Shown: positions 7,378 to 30,549 of the stretch, piece by piece
Layout: each line of letters begins with the position of its first letter
How positions within the stretch are numbered: the first letter of the stretch is position 1
Origin: Gracilimonas sp.
GTDB lineage: Bacteria > Bacteroidota > Rhodothermia > Balneolales > Balneolaceae
Reading direction: 5' to 3'
Length of the DNA: 64,000 nucleotides
Assembly: GCF_017641085.1 (NCBI RefSeq)
Contig: NZ_JAEPPI010000001.1
Location: 1,054,001 to 1,118,000, forward strand
The notes under the pieces: model-generated
Database searches by the model: none
Seen by the model: the letters and a program-made list of their open reading frames with translations, nothing else
What the model was told of the DNA's origin: nothing
Made by a program: the position numbers and the translations under genes

Positions 7378-7830
7378 ATGGGTCAACAACAATTACTTCT
7401 TGTAATTCTCGTAACAATCATCGTAGGTATTGCGACGGTTGTGGCTATTAACACATTCGGATCAGCTGCTGATTCAGCTAACCTTGACGCAGTTCGTCAG
7501 GATATTGCTACATTCGCTTCTTCAGCACAGGGCTACTTTATGAAGCCTGAAATGCTTGGCGGCGGTGGCGGTGACTGGGAAGGTATTACCTTCAATACAG
7601 TTGCTTTCCCGGCTGACGAAATCGCTAACGGCGGTTTAACAGCAGTAAACGCTAACGGTGTATATACTTTCTCTGCACCTGGTGCTACTGACACTACCTT
7701 TACCCTTACTGCTTATCCTGCTAGCCGTATTGACGGACCGGTTACCTCTTCAGTTAGTTCTGCAACTGGTAACGGACCTCTTACTGCGGATATCGGACCA
7801 GGTGGTATTTCTTGGATTGAAAATGACTAA
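7378..7830 (+). CDS. Pilin-like protein with minimal leader (candidate filament subunit)
   Basis: A 150-residue protein beginning MGQQQ, then an unbroken hydrophobic helix to about residue 24 that ends AINTFGSA. A globular beta-rich domain with a five-glycine stretch (about 62-66) and a secreted-protein composition (G, A, T, S, N, few charges) follows. The plan is that of type IV pilins/pseudopilins, but the leader is only MG, there is no FTLIE motif and no Glu at +5. It has a strong ribosome-binding site and its own terminator, consistent with high expression. A paralogue with the same LLLVILVT helix follows. Function is inferred; likely partners are the assembly genes at 20919-30549. Confidence 0.6.
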   Translation: MGQQQLLLVILVTIIVGIATVVAINTFGSAADSANLDAVRQDIATFASSAQGYFMKPEMLGGGGGDWEGITFNTVAFPADEIANGGLTAVNANGVYTFSAPGATDTTFTLTAYPASRIDGPVTSSVSSATGNGPLTADIGPGGISWIEND

Positions 7831-7864
7831 TATAGATTAGAATCTATATCATTAGTTTACAATG

Positions 7865-7894
7865 AATGGCTCCTGAAAGGGAGCCATTTTTTTT
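7865..7894 (+). terminator. Terminator between the two pilin-like genes
   Basis: AATGGCTCC (7865-7873) pairs with GGAGCCATT (7880-7888) around a six-base loop and is followed by eight T. It lies between the two pilin-like genes and would make the upstream one the more abundant transcript. Confidence 0.88.
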
Positions 7895-7924
7895 ACTCCA
7901 CTCTTATTTTATTCGGAGGTCAAA

Positions 7925-8296
7925 ATGGGAAAAAGAGAACTACTGCTGGTCATATTAGTTACTGTACTTGTTGCCATTACAGTTTCAGTAGCTTTTAACA
8001 CGTTTTCCAAGGGAGAGCTAAATCCTAACAGGTCAGCTACGTTGCAGGGTATGTATGAAGCAATAGGTAGATCTGTAGCCTATTATGAGCGCCCAAGAAT
8101 TCAGGGAGGCGGTCAGAATTCTTTTGAGGATGTTACTTTGAAAGATCTTTATCTGCAAAGTGAAAATGGTCATGGTACTTATACCATTTCAGACAGAACC
8201 TATAATTCATTTCGTTTAGTGGGAAGACCAACAAATACTGATATTGTATTAGAGGTCATGGTTTATGCGGATTCCACCGTATGGATTCAAAGATAA
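7925..8296 (+). CDS. Second pilin-like protein (candidate minor subunit)
   Basis: A 123-residue protein beginning MGKRE, then a hydrophobic helix (about 6-25) sharing LLLVILVT and the NTF exit with the upstream protein. A short polar domain with a GGGQNSFEDV turn and a beta-rich end (VWIQR) follows. It has a perfect-looking GGAGGT site seven bases before the ATG. If cleaved after Gly2 it carries Glu at +3, whereas its neighbour has Gln there. Read-through past the intervening terminator would give lower expression, as for a minor pilin. Role is inferred; it is not recognisable as any named pilin. Confidence 0.55.
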   Translation: MGKRELLLVILVTVLVAITVSVAFNTFSKGELNPNRSATLQGMYEAIGRSVAYYERPRIQGGGQNSFEDVTLKDLYLQSENGHGTYTISDRTYNSFRLVGRPTNTDIVLEVMVYADSTVWIQR

Positions 8297-13335: not shown

Positions 13336-13454
13336 AACGACCAACGACCAACGACCAACGACCAACGACCAACGACCAACGACCAACGACCAACGACCAA
13401 CGACCAACGACCAACGACCAACGACCAACGAATAACGAATAACGAATAACGAAT
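13336..13454. repeat. Heptanucleotide tandem array
   Basis: Thirteen exact copies of AACGACC (13336-13426) are followed by four copies of AACGAAT (13427-13454), all in register. The array fills the space between divergent genes and ends 12 bases before the ATG of the Fpg/Nei gene. The unit of 7 is not a multiple of 3, so any reading frame through it shifts with copy number. The exactness of the copies suggests recent expansion by slipped replication. It has no spacers and is not a CRISPR. Confidence 0.95.
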
Positions 13455-13466
13455 AAAAACGAAATC

Positions 13467-20918: not shown

Positions 20919-22256
20919 ATGGCACAATTCAGGCTAAAAGCGATTTCGCAAAAAGGTAAAGTAGTTCAAACTGAATTTGAAGCTGACAATAAGAAAGAAG
21001 CTCAACTTAAAGTAGACAGGCTTTCGAAGACCAATGGATTGAAGATCCAGTCGGTGGACGAGAAAGTGATGTTTATGTATAAAGTGCAGCGACCGGGAAA
21101 GCCGGTGGTTACAGGTGAGCAGGAAGCATACAGTAAAGAAGAATTAGAAAAAGCGCTCGTTAAGCTTGGCTATAAAGTTAAAAGCATCAATAAAAAGCTT
21201 TTCGACTTCAAAGGCGGAGTGCCTCAGCAGGAAGTTGTGACCTTCATCCGGCTATCTTCTGATTTGCTGCAGCAGCAACTTCCTTATGATGAGATCCTGA
21301 ACCTGCTGTACGAAGATACCCAGAACAAGCGGATGAAAGAGGTAATTAAAACCATCCAGAAAGACCTGAAGGATGGTAAAGAAGGTTCTGAGGTGTACGG
21401 AAAGCATGAAGATGTATTCGGTAAGTTTGCGGCTTATATGTTAAGTGTTGCCTCAACCTCAGGTAATATGGCCCTTGTTTTTGAAAGTACCGCAAAATTT
21501 ATGGAGAGGGACGCTGAGTTTAAAAAGAATATGCGCCGTGCCCTTATGATGCCTGCGGTTACCGTATTGGCTGTAATTGGGGTTGTTCTGTTTTATGTGG
21601 GATATATTTTCCCTGCAACGGCCGAAATGTTCCTGGAAATGGATATCGCTCTTCCTCCAATGACGGCCGCTACCCTCGAAATGAGTTACTGGCTGCGGGA
21701 TAACTGGGTATTGATTGTACTTTCATTCGTTATACCTATTGCTGGTTTTATCTATTTTGTTCGAACACCAAAGGGGCAGCTCTTTAAAGATAAATATATT
21801 ATACATTTACCCGTTTTGGGTGATTTATTGCATAAAACAAGTATTGAGATTTTTGCCCGGGTGTTTTACACTCTCTATAGTGGTTCAGGACAAAACATCG
21901 AAGTTATTAAGGTGGCTTCTGAAGCATGCAGGAACAAATACATGGAAAAGCAGATTAAAGAAGTCGCGATACGAAAAATGCTGAAGGATGGTGCCGGACT
22001 TATCGAGTCGATGGAGGCTACCGGTGTTTTTACAAATACAGCTTTAAGTAGATTCAGGCTGGGTGCTGAGTCGGGTGCTTTAAGGGAAAATGCCAAACAG
22101 CTGGCCGAGTACTACGAAATTCAAACCACCTATAAGATGCAGTCGGTAATTGATATGATTAATCTGTTTATCAATATGTTTATCATGGTTGCGCTGATTG
22201 CTATTACTGTTGTTTCTTCTGAATCAGCCGTAATTCAGCCGAATTCAGGTGTCTAA
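20919..22256 (+). CDS. GspF/PilC-like inner-membrane platform protein
   Basis: A 445-residue polytopic protein of the type II secretion/type IV pilus platform family, which anchors the assembly ATPase. Two copies of the short N-terminal T2SSF-type segment (about residues 1-48 and 52-95) precede the first cytoplasmic helical domain. Membrane spans lie near 208-235, 261-283 and 412-433. The second cytoplasmic domain (~290-405) keeps FARVFYTLYSGSG and RLGAESGAL motifs. It is the first gene of a seven-gene co-directional operon. Confidence 0.9.
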   Translation: MAQFRLKAISQKGKVVQTEFEADNKKEAQLKVDRLSKTNGLKIQSVDEKVMFMYKVQRPGKPVVTGEQEAYSKEELEKALVKLGYKVKSINKKLFDFKGGVPQQEVVTFIRLSSDLLQQQLPYDEILNLLYEDTQNKRMKEVIKTIQKDLKDGKEGSEVYGKHEDVFGKFAAYMLSVASTSGNMALVFESTAKFMERDAEFKKNMRRALMMPAVTVLAVIGVVLFYVGYIFPATAEMFLEMDIALPPMTAATLEMSYWLRDNWVLIVLSFVIPIAGFIYFVRTPKGQLFKDKYIIHLPVLGDLLHKTSIEIFARVFYTLYSGSGQNIEVIKVASEACRNKYMEKQIKEVAIRKMLKDGAGLIESMEATGVFTNTALSRFRLGAESGALRENAKQLAEYYEIQTTYKMQSVIDMINLFINMFIMVALIAITVVSSESAVIQPNSGV

Positions 22257-22265
22257 GAGTTTTAA

Positions 22266-24041
22266 ATGGGAAAAATAAACATACGCAGACATATTGGGGA
22301 TATCCTTGTAAACAAGGGTATTATCACTAAAGAGCAGTTGCAAAAAGGCTTGTCGATTCTCTCAGAAGAACCAAAAGAGAGCAACCGTAGGCTGGGGCAA
22401 ATTCTTTCACAGGACCTGGGATTGAACCGGCACCTGATCATGAAGGAAATTGCCAACATCTATGCCTTCCGCGAGGTTTTGAAAGATGTAGATGAAATTC
22501 CGGGAGAGGTTCTCGATCATATCAAAGAAAACCTGGAAGATCTCCCCAAAGAGATTGTAGATGAACTGGTACACCATAAGGCTCTTCCGTATCAGAAAAC
22601 CAAGAATTCCATTGTAATTGCTGCGGCAGATCCATCTGATCCTAACATTCAAAGTGTACTCAATAAGATTAATTTCAAGCAGACGGAGTTAGTCTATTGT
22701 AAATACGAGTCGATTGAAGACATCCTGTCTAAAGTTTACGAGCAAAAGAATGAATTCCTGGACCTGCTCGAAGAAATCGATTATGAAGAGCCTGATTTAG
22801 ATAAGAATCAGGAAGAAATTGACGAAGAAGAGATTGATGCCGAGATCAATCAGAGTATGCTTAATTCTTTGGTGGAAGGGATGTTGGTAGAATCAGTTCG
22901 CCAGGGAGTTAGTGATATGCACATCGTGCCAAGTTCCCCAACCACCACGGATATCCGGTTTCGTGTGGATGGTAAATTACAGCTTTGGTATCAACAGAAG
23001 AATGTGAAGCCGGAAGCTATTTCAGCCGTTATTAAAGATAAAACCCGTAATGTTGATCGTTTTGAGCGGGATGCCTCACAGGATGGTTTTATTCAGCGGC
23101 AAATTGATGGCGTTGGGATTCGGTACCGGGTTTCTATTATGCCCATTGTTGGGAAGCAGTACGATCGGAAGTTTGAGTCAATTGTAATTCGGGTTTTGGA
23201 TGACCGAAATGTAATTCGTGACCTGGATAAACTGGGTTTGCAGAAGCAGGCGAAAGAAAATTTCATAAAATCAATCCAAAAACCCTCCGGTATCGTAATT
23301 ATTACGGGTCCCACGGGAAGTGGTAAATCAACTACGTTGGTAGCCGCCTTGTACTATGTAATTGATCCGACAAAAAATGTGCTTACCGTAGAGGAACCTG
23401 TGGAGTACATTATTGAAGGAGCTAGGCAGCTAAAGATCAGTAATCATATGACCTTTGATCAGTCGATCAGGGGTATTCTCCGGCATGACCCTGATATTGT
23501 ACTTGTAGGGGAGATGAGGGATTTAAAGACCGCCGAAATTGCTATTAAACTGGCTAATACCGGTCACTTAACCTTTTCAACCCTTCACACCAATGATGCG
23601 CCCAGTGCAATTTCCCGTTTGTTTAAGATGGGGGTTGAGCCATTTTTGATTGCAAATGCCGTAAACCTGGTAGTTGCCCAGCGTTTGATCAGGCGGTTGT
23701 GCAGTAATTGCAAGGAACAGTTTACACCACATCCCGAGACGGCCAAGGGAATTGGTTTTACCGATAAAGAAATTGAAGAAACAACATTCTACAAAGCGGT
23801 TGGCTGCGAAAAATGTAATGAAACAGGCTTTAAAGGCCGTGCGGGTATTCACGAGGCCCTTTATTTCTCAAAAGAGATAAAGCAAATGATTCTGGATGCC
23901 GGTGGCGATATTGATGAAGGAGCTATCAAAGAGATGGCAATGTCGCAAGGTATGCTTACATTGCGCGGGTCTGGCCGGGAGCGTGTGAAAGAAGGTGTTT
24001 CTACGATCGAAGAAATTGTGGCTGCAACTATTGAAGATTAA
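22266..24041 (+). CDS. GspE/PilB-like assembly ATPase
   Basis: A 591-residue hexameric-type secretion ATPase. The N-terminal T2SSE_N domain (~1-150) is followed by an acidic linker (~165-195) and the core ATPase. The core has Walker A GPTGSGKST (~347-355), the Asp-box TVEEPVEY, Walker B DPDIVLVGEMRD (~407-418) and a HTNDA motif. The zinc site has the CxxC pairs CSNC (~478) and CEKC (~514), as in GspE/PilB. It drives extension of the filament or pseudopilus from the cytoplasmic side. It lies nine bases after the platform gene. Confidence 0.93.
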   Translation: MGKINIRRHIGDILVNKGIITKEQLQKGLSILSEEPKESNRRLGQILSQDLGLNRHLIMKEIANIYAFREVLKDVDEIPGEVLDHIKENLEDLPKEIVDELVHHKALPYQKTKNSIVIAAADPSDPNIQSVLNKINFKQTELVYCKYESIEDILSKVYEQKNEFLDLLEEIDYEEPDLDKNQEEIDEEEIDAEINQSMLNSLVEGMLVESVRQGVSDMHIVPSSPTTTDIRFRVDGKLQLWYQQKNVKPEAISAVIKDKTRNVDRFERDASQDGFIQRQIDGVGIRYRVSIMPIVGKQYDRKFESIVIRVLDDRNVIRDLDKLGLQKQAKENFIKSIQKPSGIVIITGPTGSGKSTTLVAALYYVIDPTKNVLTVEEPVEYIIEGARQLKISNHMTFDQSIRGILRHDPDIVLVGEMRDLKTAEIAIKLANTGHLTFSTLHTNDAPSAISRLFKMGVEPFLIANAVNLVVAQRLIRRLCSNCKEQFTPHPETAKGIGFTDKEIEETTFYKAVGCEKCNETGFKGRAGIHEALYFSKEIKQMILDAGGDIDEGAIKEMAMSQGMLTLRGSGRERVKEGVSTIEEIVAATIED

Positions 24042-24120: not shown

Positions 24121-24627
24121 ATGAGTACTGAGATGTCAAATTCCGGCGATGAATTAATGACCGATTACATAAAGAAGTTTTTGAAAGAACCTCCGTTGCT
24201 TCTGAAAAACTTCCATTATGAGGACGTTCTGGAGTTCCTTCAGTTAGGGAAGGAAGAAAGGTTTCTGTCTGATGAAATTATTTTGAATGAGTCGGAATAT
24301 GTTAATTCAGCCTATTTAGTAGCTGAAGGAAAAGTATGTATTTGGAAGGATAACATACAGTTAGCTACGTTGGGAGAAGGTAATTTTTTAGGGGAAACTT
24401 TCTTATTCAGTAAAAATAATAGAATGGCTAAGGTTACAGCTGAGGGCGATTGTGTGGTACTCAGATACGAGCGATATGAAGCCCTTAATTTTTTCAGGAA
24501 AAAACCCGAAAAGCTGTTTAATATCTTTACAAAAAATATCATCGAAATACAGCAGCGAAAAATAAGTAACATGAACGTTCAATTACTCAACTTAAAGAAG
24601 AGGTTATTGAACGATACCAATTGGTAA
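24121..24627 (+). CDS. Cyclic-nucleotide-binding-fold protein without DNA-binding domain
   Basis: A 168-residue protein whose middle (~45-150) has the cNMP-binding jelly-roll: an ILNESEYVNSAYLVAEGKVCIW stretch with the family's G-V-L spacing, then LGEGNFLGE and a phosphate-cassette-like region. The canonical R-A-A/T pair of CRP/PKA is not obvious (LGETFLFSKNNRMA), so ligand binding is uncertain. There is no helix-turn-helix, so it is not a transcription factor. It sits 79 bases after the extension ATPase and 142 before the PilT-like ATPase. A role in switching or tuning the motors is inferred. Confidence 0.7.
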   Translation: MSTEMSNSGDELMTDYIKKFLKEPPLLLKNFHYEDVLEFLQLGKEERFLSDEIILNESEYVNSAYLVAEGKVCIWKDNIQLATLGEGNFLGETFLFSKNNRMAKVTAEGDCVVLRYERYEALNFFRKKPEKLFNIFTKNIIEIQQRKISNMNVQLLNLKKRLLNDTNW

Positions 24628-24769: not shown

Positions 24770-26017
24770 ATGGAGGCGGCAACCAAGAAATCCGAAAAGC
24801 TATCAGAACTGGTTCAGCCGGTTATTGATCAATTACCCCGAACTTCCAGGGGAATAGATCGCCACGTCCAGTTGGGAAATGTGGTTGATAACCTGGGGGA
24901 CGATCACCGGGAGAGTCTTTCGGATATATTAGACGGCTACCTGAAAAGGATGCTGAAGAATGATGCTTCTGATATTGATTTAGGTGGTCCTGGCTGTGAT
25001 GGCAGGGTTTGGTACCGAATTTATGGTGACAAAAAACCTGCAAAAGTACCCGTAAGCCTATCTTTGGATGAAACGAATGTACTATTGCATAACGCTATTC
25101 TTCCATCCCAGAGAAAAAAGCTAATAGAAGACAAGAATCTTGACTTTTCTTATTCAATAGAGCTTGGAAACGGCAAACAACAGCGTTTTCGGGCCGATAT
25201 GTATTTTGACCTGGAGCACCTTGCGCTCAACATGCGTAAGATTGACAATACCATCCGCCCATTTAAGAACCTGAACGTACATACAGAGGTAGCCAAAGCT
25301 CTCAGTTTAAAGTACTACAAGTACGGTTTAACGCTTATTACTGGTATTACGGGTTCCGGTAAGTCATCTACACTGGATACCATTATAGACGCCAACAATC
25401 GGACGGTTGATTCTCATATTGTAATTATAGCCTCTCCGGTTGAATTAATACACACACCCATCAAATCGGTGGTTCGACACAGGGAAGTAGGCCGGGATGT
25501 TGAATCTTTTAAAGAAGGTGCAGTGCAGGCTCTTCGTCAGGATCCGGATATTATTGTGATTGGTGAGCTTCGAGATCCCGAAACTATTATGACAGCCCTG
25601 GAAATTACTGATTCCGGTCACAAAACCTTCGGAACTCTTCACACATCATCAGCCATGGAGAGTATTGAGCGTATTTTGGGTGAGGTTCCAACAGAAGAGC
25701 AGAACAGGGTTCGGGTGAGGTTGGCTGATGTTTTGACGTGCGTTGTCAGTCAAAAACTGGTCCCCAGCCTGGATGGAAAACGAGTATTAGCTAAAGAAGT
25801 ATTGATGGTAAACACTTCTGTCAGGGCAGCAATTCGCAATAATAATATAGGGGAGATCTATCAGATGTTGATGGAAGGCGGAGAAAAAGGGATGAATACG
25901 ATGGAACAAGATCTTAAGAGGCTGTACACCGATGGTATTATTTCTAAAGAAAATGCACTAAATCACGCCAACAACAAAACTAAAATGGTTCAACTGCTAA
26001 GTGAAGTTAATTACTAA
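24770..26017 (+). CDS. PilT-like retraction ATPase
   Basis: A 415-residue ATPase resembling PilT/PilU, which powers pilus retraction. The core has Walker A GITGSGKSST (~191-200), Walker B DPDIIVIGELRD (~255-266), a TLHT/SA segment and a VRVRLADVLTCVVSQKL helix. The Asp-box reads IIASPVEL (~219) instead of the usual TIEDPIEF, losing two acidic residues. An N-terminal extension of about 50 residues is longer than PilT's. It is followed nine bases later by the PilMN fusion. Confidence 0.88.
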   Translation: MEAATKKSEKLSELVQPVIDQLPRTSRGIDRHVQLGNVVDNLGDDHRESLSDILDGYLKRMLKNDASDIDLGGPGCDGRVWYRIYGDKKPAKVPVSLSLDETNVLLHNAILPSQRKKLIEDKNLDFSYSIELGNGKQQRFRADMYFDLEHLALNMRKIDNTIRPFKNLNVHTEVAKALSLKYYKYGLTLITGITGSGKSSTLDTIIDANNRTVDSHIVIIASPVELIHTPIKSVVRHREVGRDVESFKEGAVQALRQDPDIIVIGELRDPETIMTALEITDSGHKTFGTLHTSSAMESIERILGEVPTEEQNRVRVRLADVLTCVVSQKLVPSLDGKRVLAKEVLMVNTSVRAAIRNNNIGEIYQMLMEGGEKGMNTMEQDLKRLYTDGIISKENALNHANNKTKMVQLLSEVNY

Positions 26018-26025
26018 GGCTGAAT

Positions 26026-27765
26026 ATGTTATCTAATAAGACATATACCGGAATTGTTGTTGACGAAGAGTTTCTGAAAGTTGCCCGTATTAAAATTACC
26101 GGTAAACAGGTTTCGTTAGTCAGTTTGGACAAAGTGCGCCTGGTGGAGAGCCTTAAGGGCAAAGCTAAAGCTGCCAAAGAAGAAGAAACAGTTGATGTTT
26201 TTGACAGCATTGATGACAGCCTTGATGATGAAGATGTAATTTTTGGTCTGGAAGAAGAGGAAGAAGATCAAACCGAGGAGTTGGATTTAGATGCTTTTGA
26301 GGATGATCTCGATGACCTTGATTTTGATAATCTCGACGATTTAGAGGGTTCCGATGAGATCGTTGATACCGATATGGTCGACGAAACCGAAGCGGCGGCA
26401 TCTAATGAACTGCTATTATATAACCTTTTAAGCTCTACAGATTCCAAGAGGGTGGATGTTGGTCTAAGTATCCCTGCCGGACAAACTATTTTCCAGATCC
26501 TTAAAGATGTTGACTTTTCCGAGACCAAAAAGAAAGACCTTCAGATTATCGTAGATGATCGTCTCGAAGCCCTTCATGGGGTATCCAAAGCCGAAGATTA
26601 TTACTCATATTCGGTACGTGATGACGGAGCCCTGCTCCTTACCTCTATTGATGATGAGCCGGATTTACTGAAACTGATGAACCGAACCCGTGACATGTAT
26701 CGCGGAAAATTGTTCATCAATGAGATCTTACCGGATGAAATTCTTCTATTGGGGCTGATCAGGGCAAATTATGAGCTTGAGATAAACAGTATTACCGGTG
26801 TGGTTCAGTTTGGTGAAAAGACCAGCAGAATCCTGTTTTTAAAAGGCTCTCAGCTATGGATTGTATCACCGATAATTACCGAAGGAATTAAGAATCCTAA
26901 ATTTCTGAATACAATATTCAGTAAAATCCTTTTCCAGCTCGATACCGGTGAGGTTCCGAACCTTGATCGGCTTATCATATGTAATAATTCGCTGGGAGAT
27001 GATGCAATCGAGTTCTTTGAGGAGCGTTTTCAGGATGTAAACGTTTCAGAGTTTGAATTTTCTGATGATTTCTTTGACGCCGAAGATATCAATCCTTCCT
27101 CCATTCCTGCTTTCACTACTGCAATTGGTGCTGCATGGTCGGCTTCCGGATTTCAAAAAGACAATTTCCCAAGCATTTCTTTCTTGCCTAGTTATGTAAT
27201 AGACAGGCAGAAGATTTTTAAGCTGCAATGGCATGGATTTTTACTATTGCTTTTGATTTTGCTTACGCCAATTGTATCAAACCACTTTTATACTCAGAAT
27301 GCGGTAGAAATAGATCGCCTGAGAAATGAAGTGAGCACATTAAATTCTCAAATACAATCGCTTGAGCCCACCGTTCAGCGTTATAATCAAATAAGTTCCG
27401 ACTTAGAACAAATTCAGGCTAAGCTTGTGCTATTGAGTGAGCTGAACCAGGGAACCTTACGCTGGAGCAAGAACCTCGATCGAATTAATAGTGGGGTAGA
27501 TGATGTAAACTCTGTCTGGCTCACTTCAGCTACCACTCTCCCAAATGGTGATATCGAATTAAGCGGATATGCTGTTTACAGAGAGCGAATAGCAGAGTTG
27601 GCGGATGTATTTGAAGATGCAACGCTTTTGAATGTTACCTCAGATCAAATCCGGGAACAGGATGTTTACAGCTTTACTTATGTTGTTTCAGAGTTTTTTG
27701 AGGATGAAAGCATTTACACCCCACAAAGTGTGCAGGGAATTGAAGAATTAATACAAGGGAACTAA
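26026..27765 (+). CDS. PilM-PilN fusion protein (GspL-like)
   Basis: A 579-residue protein. Residues ~1-50 and ~130-390 make an actin-like PilM/GspL-cytoplasmic domain (GIVVDEE, LLSSTD, VGLSIPAG, TSRILFLKG, AIGAAWSA). They are interrupted by a strongly acidic, Glu/Asp-rich insert (~53-125). A single membrane span (~398-421), a coiled coil (~425-475) and a PilN-like periplasmic ferredoxin-fold domain (~490-579, LPNGDIELSGYA) follow. In typical pili PilM and PilN are separate; here they are joined as in GspL of type II systems. The acidic insert is unusual. Confidence 0.82.
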   Translation: MLSNKTYTGIVVDEEFLKVARIKITGKQVSLVSLDKVRLVESLKGKAKAAKEEETVDVFDSIDDSLDDEDVIFGLEEEEEDQTEELDLDAFEDDLDDLDFDNLDDLEGSDEIVDTDMVDETEAAASNELLLYNLLSSTDSKRVDVGLSIPAGQTIFQILKDVDFSETKKKDLQIIVDDRLEALHGVSKAEDYYSYSVRDDGALLLTSIDDEPDLLKLMNRTRDMYRGKLFINEILPDEILLLGLIRANYELEINSITGVVQFGEKTSRILFLKGSQLWIVSPIITEGIKNPKFLNTIFSKILFQLDTGEVPNLDRLIICNNSLGDDAIEFFEERFQDVNVSEFEFSDDFFDAEDINPSSIPAFTTAIGAAWSASGFQKDNFPSISFLPSYVIDRQKIFKLQWHGFLLLLLILLTPIVSNHFYTQNAVEIDRLRNEVSTLNSQIQSLEPTVQRYNQISSDLEQIQAKLVLLSELNQGTLRWSKNLDRINSGVDDVNSVWLTSATTLPNGDIELSGYAVYRERIAELADVFEDATLLNVTSDQIREQDVYSFTYVVSEFFEDESIYTPQSVQGIEELIQGN

Positions 27766-27772
27766 TAGTCAA

Positions 27773-28642
27773 TTGTCATACGCGGTCCGAAATACCATCA
27801 TTCTGTTAGTAACACTTACGCTGTTTGTAGGTGCTGCTTTCTCTTATATCAAGTTTTTCCAAATGTCTGAATTGCAAGAGCTTCAGACTTCGGTAACGGA
27901 AAAGCAAAAGGATTTTAACAGCAAGAAGGCTACCAGTGACGCCTTTCCGGCTTTAAATCAAAGATACCAACAGGCGCTTTCTATCATTGAAAATGCAGAT
28001 AAATCCCTTTTTAAATCACCTAACCCAGATGATATTTACGATTATCTGAACTATATAAGTAATAGCAGTACATCGTCTAAAGTGTTTTTTGATTTTGTTT
28101 TCGTTGACTCCACAGCTCAGGATCAGTATGGAATTGTGAATGCTGAAATAAACGGATACGGCTCTTACACTAACTTCGTGAACTTTGTGAATAAGATTGA
28201 GAACAGCCAGCTGTTGAATAAAATCTCTGAGATTACACTCACACCGCCCAGCTCTAATCCTGAAGAGCTCAATGACATTACTTTTACTTTTATTTTAGAA
28301 AGCTATTACGAGCGCATCCCCATCCAGGATGGTTTGACACTGACCAGCCAGCTCACAATGGATGAACGCGTTTCAACATTTAACCCATTTTACCCACTTA
28401 TACAGGAAGTAATTCCTCCTAATGATGATAATCTCATTAATGTGGAACAAAGCAGATTAATAGGCCTTACTGCATCGCGAATATTTCTCGTAGATCAGGG
28501 AGGAAACATAAATTCACTTAGAAAAGGGGATGAAGTGTACCTTGGTGAATTAGAATCTATAGACCTTAAAAATAAATCCGCTACTTTTAATCTAAACAAA
28601 GGTGGCATCACGGAATTGGTTACCTTGGAGATAGAGCGATGA
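27773..28642 (+). CDS. PilO-PilP fusion protein
   Basis: A 289-residue protein that starts at TTG. An N-terminal membrane span (~8-28), a coiled coil (~30-75) and a PilO-like periplasmic domain (~80-190, ending TFTFILESYY) come first. A C-terminal ~70-residue domain follows (~218-289) with a LTASRIFLVDQGG...KGDEVYLGELESI pattern. That pattern matches the PilP/GspC homology-region domain that contacts the secretin. Joining PilO and PilP in one chain replaces the separate lipoprotein PilP. Its stop overlaps the secretin start by four bases (ATGA). Confidence 0.75.
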   Translation: MSYAVRNTIILLVTLTLFVGAAFSYIKFFQMSELQELQTSVTEKQKDFNSKKATSDAFPALNQRYQQALSIIENADKSLFKSPNPDDIYDYLNYISNSSTSSKVFFDFVFVDSTAQDQYGIVNAEINGYGSYTNFVNFVNKIENSQLLNKISEITLTPPSSNPEELNDITFTFILESYYERIPIQDGLTLTSQLTMDERVSTFNPFYPLIQEVIPPNDDNLINVEQSRLIGLTASRIFLVDQGGNINSLRKGDEVYLGELESIDLKNKSATFNLNKGGITELVTLEIER

Positions 28643-30549
28643 AACCCATGAAAGCAACATTCTACACAAAAGGTTTTTTGTCATTAGTCCTTTTCGGCTT
28701 GGTAAGTTTACTACAACCGCAGCTTGTACATGCTCAGGTAGTCGATCCTCTAAAAGAATACACCAATCCGGAAGAGATCGTAGCTTTCGACAAAAGCACG
28801 ACCTACAACGAGGCTATTGAGATAATTAATACCTTTGCCCAGGAATTTGAAAACAGGTTTATTGTTGACAATTCTGCTTACAGCGGAACCATTGGTGTGA
28901 CGTTGCCAGCCATGCACTGGAAAGATGCGCTTCAATACATCATGCGGTTTAATAACCTTGAGCTGGAAGAATACGAAGACTTTTATGAAATAAATGTTCC
29001 GGCACCTCCTACTACTGGAACTACAACTCAGGCTTCAGGTGGGGGTTCTAACGCATCTCAGGGCCAACCTCCAACAGCTACAACCCGAACGCAGGAAGTG
29101 CGTATTAATGCTACATTTTTTGAAGGGAATAAAAGAGCACTTCAGGAAATCGGGATAGACTGGTCCACACTGACAAGTGACGTACCTGCTAATTTGGGAG
29201 ATTTTGTAGGTGCTGATGGGAATCAAGGCATCCCATCTACCGATTTTAACGATCAGTTCGTATCCGTTAACTCCTACAACGCTGCCAGTGTTTCTCAGAA
29301 TGCCTTTAACGCCCTTGTTAATTTAGGCGAAGTCGGTCCCGGAATCAGTGTACAAGCGTTATTCAGTGCTTTTGAGGCTGATAACCTTGGTAAGGTTTTG
29401 GCTACTCCATCTATTAAAGTAGTGGATGGCGAAGAGGGAAATATCCAGGTAGGGCAGGATTTCTCTATTAAACAGCGTGATATAGCCGGTAACGTGACGG
29501 ATAACTTTATTAGTACAGGAACCATTCTTACCGTAACTCCTGAAATTATCAGTCAGGGCGACACCTCTTTTATCTATCTCTCGCTGGAAGTAGAACGTTC
29601 TACCGTTCTGCCCGATGTAGTTAGTACCATTGTAAACAAACAGGAAGCAACAACTTCAGCTATCCTGCTGAATGGCGAAGCAACCTATGTTGCCGGATTG
29701 TATCGAACGGAAGAATCTTCAGTGCGAAGGGGAGTTCCCATTCTCAAAGATTTACCGGGTTGGTTCTTTGGTCTCCGTTATTTATTTGGATATAACTCCA
29801 AAGACTATTCCGAGAATGAATTGATTATCATCGTGCAGGCTGAGTTGATTAAACCGGTTTCAGAACGAATTTCAGATCGCAAGCTTACTAAACGCGAAGT
29901 GCTGAACAATACCCGCGATGGTATGCGAACCGATTTAGACCGCGTGTTTACCACCGAAACGTTTGATATGCCCGTGGAGGAAGAAATAGCTGAGGCTCAG
30001 CAGGAAGAACAACCGGCCATGGACGATTCAACCCTTGCGGAAACGGACAAGGATAATACCCAGCCGGATACCATGACTGTTGAGGAACAACCGGTAGATG
30101 CCGAAGAAGAGGATGCACTTACGGATGAGCAACAGGAACTGGCTAAAGATTTAAGTATGCCTGTTGATAAGCCGGAATTAATGGTGGTTGTACCGAAGGC
30201 ATTCAATTTGGATGAATATCTGGAGTACCAACAGAATGAGCAGCAAGTAGAGACCATGCAGGAAGAGACCTCCAATTTAAAATACTTTGTGATTGGCGGT
30301 TCATTTCTTGTTCCGGGTAATGCACAGAACTTTAAATCCACTCTTGAGCAAGAAGGCTATAACACACAAATCCTGTTTAACCCCGAAACCCGATTTAACT
30401 ACGTAGCTTACGAAGGGTTTGCCGATTTCAATACGGCTGTTGAACGAACGCTTGAAATCAGGGACAGCTTTAACAGTGAAGCGTGGTTGTTTACTCTGAG
30501 AAACGGCAACAACCCGAATGCTGAGCGGGTTAACGGCAGCAGCGAATAA
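28639..30549 (+). CDS. Secretin (GspD/PilQ-like) with C-terminal SPOR domain
   Basis: A 636-residue outer-membrane secretin. A signal peptide cleaves after VHA (residue 32) and an STN/N0 domain (~50-112) follows. A GT/S-rich linker (~115-145) precedes the secretin core (~150-415), which carries GEATYVAGLYR, VPILKDLPG and ENELIIIVQAELI. A long acidic linker (~440-540) leads to a C-terminal SPOR domain (~547-628), with YFVIGGSF and an A-YEGFADF segment. SPOR domains bind denuded glycan strands of peptidoglycan, so this secretin could be tethered to the wall. No pilotin gene is adjacent. Confidence 0.88.
   Translation: MKPMKATFYTKGFLSLVLFGLVSLLQPQLVHAQVVDPLKEYTNPEEIVAFDKSTTYNEAIEIINTFAQEFENRFIVDNSAYSGTIGVTLPAMHWKDALQYIMRFNNLELEEYEDFYEINVPAPPTTGTTTQASGGGSNASQGQPPTATTRTQEVRINATFFEGNKRALQEIGIDWSTLTSDVPANLGDFVGADGNQGIPSTDFNDQFVSVNSYNAASVSQNAFNALVNLGEVGPGISVQALFSAFEADNLGKVLATPSIKVVDGEEGNIQVGQDFSIKQRDIAGNVTDNFISTGTILTVTPEIISQGDTSFIYLSLEVERSTVLPDVVSTIVNKQEATTSAILLNGEATYVAGLYRTEESSVRRGVPILKDLPGWFFGLRYLFGYNSKDYSENELIIIVQAELIKPVSERISDRKLTKREVLNNTRDGMRTDLDRVFTTETFDMPVEEEIAEAQQEEQPAMDDSTLAETDKDNTQPDTMTVEEQPVDAEEEDALTDEQQELAKDLSMPVDKPELMVVVPKAFNLDEYLEYQQNEQQVETMQEETSNLKYFVIGGSFLVPGNAQNFKSTLEQEGYNTQILFNPETRFNYVAYEGFADFNTAVERTLEIRDSFNSEAWLFTLRNGNNPNAERVNGSSE

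Follow-up and report, generated by a model that had tools for sequence, protein, structure and literature searches.

Two adjacent genes with leaderless products

The window, by which we mean the whole 64,000-nucleotide stretch of Gracilimonas sp. DNA that was analyzed, carries two neighboring genes on the plus strand whose products we call pilin 1 and pilin 2. Pilin 1 (7378..7830; 150 aa; MGQQQLLLVILVTIIVG... / MGQQQLLLVILVT...) is the putative major pilin, identified from its ORF, an AlphaFold2 model, structural matches, and a family found in 77 of 116 relatives; pilin 2 (7925..8296; 123 aa; MGKRELLLVILVTVLVA... / MGKRELLLVILVT...), the putative minor pilin, is identified from its ORF, AlphaFold2 model, and structural matches. 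The first-pass annotation had described both proteins as starting with Met-Gly followed directly by a hydrophobic helix with a shared core. Both ORFs were confirmed at these positions, the two proteins are 36% identical in a pairwise alignment, and conservation of the core is far above chance. Its description of Met-Gly as a leader is not quite right; judged from the reading frames, both proteins are most likely leaderless. A Shine-Dalgarno-like AGGAG/GGAGG stands ahead of the ATG of both genes, and the frame extends 5′ of the ATG for 3 codons in pilin 1 and ∼16 codons in pilin 2, with no ATG, GTG, or TTG in either stretch. Nor did any of 106 distinct pilin relatives from related genomes have an alternative upstream start (0/106). 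With no in-frame alternative available, the idea that a start codon farther upstream had been missed was rejected for both window genes and for these relatives. Neither pilin carries a class III signal peptide, that is, a leader of 6 to 26 aa ending in Gly or Ala ahead of a hydrophobic tract, and hmmscan gave no PF07963 (N_methyl) match over the cut-off in either protein. Pfam and NCBIfam searches with the two pilins returned only sub-threshold matches, to ComP_DUS (18.2 bits; cut-off 27.3), MacB_PCD, and GspH (14.2 bits; cut-off 80), and these identities were set aside for that reason. A third leaderless pilin paralogue of 148 aa (MGQQQLLLVILVAVLVG) lies in the same genome (G000:C1:619011-619448; L087:412-855).

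Between the two genes is an intrinsic terminator (7864..7895, plus strand), with an 11-pair stem at 7864-7889, a T run, and a folding z of -4.95. A hairpin followed by a T run is present in 27 of the 30 pilin-pilin gaps of relatives, and the stem sequences differ. The terminator is probably an attenuator favoring pilin 1, and we infer that pilin 1 is a highly expressed major pilin and pilin 2 a minor pilin reached by read-through. The window also holds a perfect 7-base tandem repeat at 13336-13456, made up of 13.7 copies of AACGACC and then 4.3 copies of AACGAAT.

Predicted fold and register

Structure prediction had been proposed as a check for a pilin fold, and both predicted structures are pilins. 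The AlphaFold2 model of pilin 1 (pLDDT 94.1) consists of a helix at residues 2-55 and a beta sheet, that of pilin 2 has a pLDDT of 92.3, and both models show the long N-terminal helix and antiparallel beta-sheet head of the type IV pilin fold. For pilin 1, a Foldseek search of the PDB returned no hit with E <= 0.001; VIA-align was run on its candidates as a second look, and pilin 2 was compared by VIA-align only. For pilin 1, type IV pilins and pseudopilins fill the first 15 rows, led by 4noa with Z 7.7 and an rmsd of 2.8 across 92 residues, and the first unrelated row has Z 3.5. For pilin 2, every one of the first 17 rows is a type IV pilin, led by 5v23 with Z 8.9 and an rmsd of 2.4 across 82 residues, and the first unrelated row has Z 5.2. 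Z values under 8 are common with this method, and an unbroken top run of pilins is hard to obtain by chance. By predicted fold, both ORFs are type IV pilins, an assignment that draws on VIA-align together with weak sequence matches (best E 0.004).

The solved pilins also supply a register. In weak sequence alignments (E 0.0084 to 1.1), residue 6 lines up with residue 3 of the chain in PilA5, PilE1, geopilin 2m7g, and 6xxe. In structural alignments, residue 4 corresponds to residue 1 of FimA (pilin 1) and of PilA4 (pilin 2), and residue 5 of pilin 2 corresponds to residue 1 of the PAK and gonococcal pilins. The offset is thus mostly 3, which puts the start roughly three residues, or two without Met, ahead of the canonical +1, and the conserved Gly17 stands where the Gly of mature position 14 would be. 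This register disfavors a two-residue Met-Gly leader, as the canonical +1 is residue 4. The residues named in the first-pass annotation, Glu in pilin 2 and Gln in pilin 1, are as it said, but their placement at +3 presumes a cut after Gly2; counted from Met, they are residue 5. It was right that Glu is absent from canonical position 5, which in the register of solved pilins is occupied by Leu8. An hhalign comparison of the pilin family with the canonical pilins of a second system found in some relatives (see below) gave E 0.025 and 0.089, which is not significant, in a different register.

Conservation of the N terminus

Conservation among relatives is concentrated at the start of the protein, where the mean frequency of the top residue is 0.82 (residues 1-27) versus 0.44 for the remainder in a 93-row alignment. 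The 106 distinct relatives were obtained from 130 matching ORFs by removing duplicates and one lacking a start (cut by the locus end), and the alignment by further removing near-duplicates at 80% identity and a GTG-start sequence. Among the 106, residue 2 is Gly in 100, Ala in 5, and Ser in 1, and residue 5 is Gln in 97, Glu in 7, Thr in 1, and His in 1. The start MGQQQLLL occurs in 79 sequences and is encoded by 48 different 24-mers of DNA; therefore, it is the protein that is conserved, and this is not recent copying. In 20 further loci from genomes outside the window's class, drawn from a pattern-free search, there were 44 pilin matches, all of which (44/44) start with Met-Gly followed by Gln4 and Gln5; a further in-frame start lies upstream in three of these loci (L250, L260, and L261). 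N termini from scans that require MGQQQ are biased, and the counts from the 106 relatives and the 20 loci are not. In 87 of the 93 alignment rows there is no charged side chain in the first 12 residues, so the usual Glu5 contact would be unable to operate in them.

The assembly operon and its co-occurrence with the pilins

On the same strand, 12.6 kb downstream of the pilins, is a type IV pilus operon. It begins with the platform protein PilC (20919..22256; T2SSF, 2e-27), whose orthologues in pilin-bearing genomes are 41-100% identical, followed by the extension ATPase PilB with an MshEN domain (22266..24041; T2SSE, 1.8e-99; MshEN, 2.9e-07; TIGR02538, 443.6 bits, below the cut-off of 675.65), a protein with a cyclic-nucleotide-binding domain (24121..24627; cNMP_binding, 8.9e-13), and a PilT-type retraction ATPase (24770..26017; TIGR01420, 309.7 bits, cut-off 319.1) with orthologues in the same operon elsewhere. 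Next come a putative PilM/PilN-like inner-membrane protein (26026..27765), PilO (27773..28642; PF04350, 1.8e-06), and the secretin PilQ (28639..30549; PF00263, 7.6e-28). In the PilMNO complex, PilO was matched by profile and PilM/N assigned by position only, the PilM/PilN-like protein having no pilus Pfam match and a conserved place between PilT and PilO. PilB, PilC, PilT, and a secretin, which together mark a type IVa machine, are all present in this one system. The cNMP-binding protein, found at the same place in two other loci (L147 and L158), could point to nucleotide control of pilus extension or retraction. The MshEN domain is one linked to c-di-GMP binding; in the PilB homologue the MshE-related motif is sub-threshold.

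Co-occurrence with this operon had been named as a check on the pilins. In 394 genomes of the phylum, the pilin family was found in 130 and a PilC orthologue in 129, with both in 127, the pilin alone in 3, PilC alone in 2, and neither in 262; the PilC count is 146 matches less 17 that were assigned to other systems (those listed have E 3e-11 to 4e-23). Among the 116 relatives, 77 have the pilin family, 78 a PilC orthologue (a 79th genome, with a 23% match only, was excluded), 74 both, and 8 PF01478. In all 20 of the phylum loci that were fetched, the pilins precede pilC on the same strand, and in the majority of relatives examined they do so directly. The order pilin-PilC-PilB-PilT recurs in most of 15 loci compared, followed, in loci of sufficient length, by the PilM/N-like protein, PilO, and PilQ. 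One of the fetched loci (L254; G206:C8:137700-143500) has four leaderless pilins in tandem ahead of pilC, and three of these resemble one another in the N-terminal stretch that was read.

For the wider spread, one genome per species from 84,980 species was scanned for the start MGQQQ[LI][LI][LV][VLI], which yielded 546 stretches, 455 of them encoding a relative. Labels among the best 80 of these 455 are Balneolota in 54, and also Rhodothermota, KSB1, Gemmatimonadota, Kryptonia, and Fidelibacterota/Neomarinimicrobiota; the start MGQQQLLL itself recurs in contigs labeled Balneolota, KSB1, Gemmatimonadota, Kryptonia, and Marinimicrobia. A few scan labels (Mollicutes, Deltaproteobacteria, Patescibacteria, and Chitinophagaceae) may reflect errors of binning or naming. 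In 53 of 79 MGQQQ-start loci, PilC follows on the same strand, no more than 3.1 kb downstream. About half of the remaining 26 end within 5 kb, and about ten have some 9 kb on that side without PilC; two Gracilimonas loci are among those with no nearby PilC, their pilins standing apart from the operon as in the window.

Prepilin peptidase and a second, canonical system

A type IVa machine also includes the prepilin peptidase PilD. Profile searches of the window's own genome (98.4% complete) found neither a PF01478 prepilin peptidase nor a PF07963 N_methyl prepilin, and with PF06750 gave one sub-threshold match (12.6 bits) in an 81-aa frame. Across the 394 phylum genomes, PF01478 was detected in 51, short forms included; 15 of these are among the 127 genomes with both pilin and PilC, leaving 112 of the 127 without it, and the other 36 have no Met-Gly pilin match. 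Of the genomes that have the pilin and no peptidase match, 12 consist of a single contig.

Where the peptidase is present, it keeps company with other pilins. In all eight peptidase-positive genomes among the 116 relatives, an N_methyl pilin is found no more than 1 kb from PF01478, which is either on a different contig from the Met-Gly pilins or at least 25 kb away from them. Seven of the eight also have a second PilC-like protein (22-24% identity), and G042 has a fragment. The pilins of this second system are canonical, with leaders of 6-13 aa ending in Gly and with Glu5, in a set of 15 rows selected by a GFTLxE-like pattern and taken from 8 of the 20 loci L227-L246. This minority of Balneolaceae (L031-L038 and L227-L246) has an A24 peptidase, leader-bearing N_methyl pilins, and a distant PilC. 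In 79 other pilin-bearing genomes, which are the 127 without the window's own family members and 8 near relatives of listed ones, N_methyl was found in 8/8 with PF01478 and 1/71 without, so that all 16 of the tested genomes with both the pilin and the peptidase have N_methyl. By gene content, then, canonical prepilins travel with the peptidase and leaderless pilins do not, with the exceptions of G018 and G064, where N_methyl prepilins and a second PilC were found and PF01478 was not, and of G174, which has N_methyl and no match to PF01478. Sensitivity of the search is imperfect, as Lactococcus, one of 14 control genomes, likewise gives N_methyl prepilins and no PF01478 match. Beyond the Bacteroidota sample, leaderless pilins and the peptidase often coexist, because 11 of 22 genomes reached via MGQQQ loci hold PF01478, and processing after Gly may occur there.

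Proposed assembly of pilins made without a leader

We consider it likely that the two proteins are subunits of a retractable, type IVa-like pilus, made leaderless and assembled without a prepilin peptidase by the products of pilC-pilB-(cNMP)-pilT-pilM/N-pilO-pilQ. The first-pass annotation had suggested that they could be filament subunits of the operon 12 kb away; the pilin fold and the co-occurrence support this, and a subunit role is what we infer from them. Translation would begin two to three residues ahead of the point where canonical prepilins are cut. Methionine aminopeptidase needs Gly, Ala, or Ser at residue 2, and because this residue is nearly always Gly, we propose that the cytosolic enzyme would remove Met, giving an N terminus of Gly-Gln-Gln-Gln or Gly-Lys-Arg-Glu. 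The hydrophobic helix would act as an uncleaved signal anchor inserted via SRP/Sec with the N terminus in and the C terminus out. PilB and PilC would then extract the subunit from the membrane and add it to the filament, PilT would retract the filament, and PilQ would be the exit pore. A prepilin peptidase would not be needed, and without PilD there would be no N-methylation. The conserved polar Gln-Gln-Gln cap is a candidate to substitute for the pair of free amine and Glu5 in docking.

Between a novel processing rule and no processing, which had been left as alternatives, we favor no processing and the novel rule less so, because the genome has no PF01478 peptidase and the proteins have no leader to remove. 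A novel rule could be a minimal two-residue leader, cut after Gly2 (or Gln3) by an unrecognized non-A24 peptidase, with the exposed Gln perhaps cyclizing to pyroglutamate; we regard this as unlikely. Gly, Ala, or Ser at residue 2 fits the need of methionine aminopeptidase equally well, and no peptidase gene was recognized among the operon genes scanned. The near invariance of Gly2 (100/106; 44/44) does recall the Gly that precedes the cleavage site of canonical prepilins, as described in an excerpt of a review (PMC4471445), but in the register of solved pilins it falls at -2, not -1. It is very unlikely that a diverged prepilin peptidase was missed and that the pilins are processed as usual. 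The control genome with N_methyl prepilins and no PF01478 match, and G018, G064, and G174 alike, speak for such an oversight, but the search works in this phylum, because it detected the peptidase in the 51 genomes and N_methyl accompanied it in 16/16; the single-contig genomes are also peptidase-negative, PF06750 gave noise only in the window's own genome, and there is no leader to cut.

Least probable, in our judgment, is that these proteins are pilin-like membrane accessories (e.g., of the tip or platform) and that a different, unseen protein makes up most of the filament. The tip-capping minor pilin of canonical systems is without Glu5 (review, in excerpt), but these are the sole pilin-like genes found, the window's own genome has no N_methyl match, the family is linked to pilC across the phylum, tandem copies with similar N termini occur (four in L254), and the terminator that follows pilin 1 is consistent with a subunit made in large amounts. 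Taking the pilins as uncleaved filament subunits, we think it probable that they represent a branch of type IV filaments across Bacteroidota/FCB, built from pilins that are born mature, with no leader, peptidase, N-methylation, or Glu5, in which the Gly-Gln-Gln-Gln cap docks instead.

Comparison with known type IV filaments

A leader-bearing prepilin and its peptidase are listed as universally conserved components of type IV filaments, Glu5 pilin mutants are unable to form homopolymers, and the prepilin helix is inserted by SRP/Sec (PMC4471445, in excerpt); Glu5 itself is described as almost invariable, not absolute, in canonical pilins (review, in excerpt). If our reading is true, a widespread natural system without leader, peptidase, and Glu5 would mean that the three are not required for pilus assembly, and pilin finders based on signal peptides would miss a large group. 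The roles of Glu5 and N-methylation would be directly testable, as some relatives carry both systems in one cell. In the open-licence PMC literature, as available in excerpt, we found no account of bacterial type IV pilins that lack a leader, and MGQQQ appears in print there in one unrelated nematode receptor paper only. The excerpted account of Caldithrix abyssi (PMC5317091) states that a pili IV cluster exists and nothing more, and that of Gracilimonas tropica (PMC4642740) calls the organism "non-motile" with pili unmentioned; that of PMC11071339 has nothing that bears on leaderless pilins. The Melioribacter roseus genome is reported, again in excerpt, to have pilus motors and neither pilA nor pilD (PMC3534657); the pilin was not recognized there, and leaderless pilins, if real, would explain both absences.

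The Bacteroidetes putative T2SS, as in Cytophaga hutchinsonii (CHU_3191-3201; PMC5553014, in excerpt), is likewise a T4P-related machine from the same wider phylum, and it clusters with T4aP (PMC6668835, in excerpt). In contrast to the window system, where an A24 peptidase and leader-bearing pseudopilins are absent from the cluster, the C. hutchinsonii locus has a Peptidase_A24 gene and recognized pseudopilins, and it resembles the second canonical system of 8 of the 116 relatives. MSHA loci likewise have no peptidase in the locus, but their genomes always hold one from another system (PMC6668835, in excerpt); unlike them, most pilin-bearing genomes here have no peptidase that we could find. 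With the type IVa pilus and its PilA/PilE subunits (class III signal peptide, PF07963/IPR012902), the window system shares the predicted pilin fold, the hydrophobic helix, and PilB, PilC, PilT, PilO, and PilQ, whereas its pilins have no leader, Gly-1, or in-register Glu5, and no prepilin peptidase was found in the genome. As read from sequence and predicted structure, the system is like a type IVa pilus by fold and machine, and by signal peptide and peptidase it is not a member.
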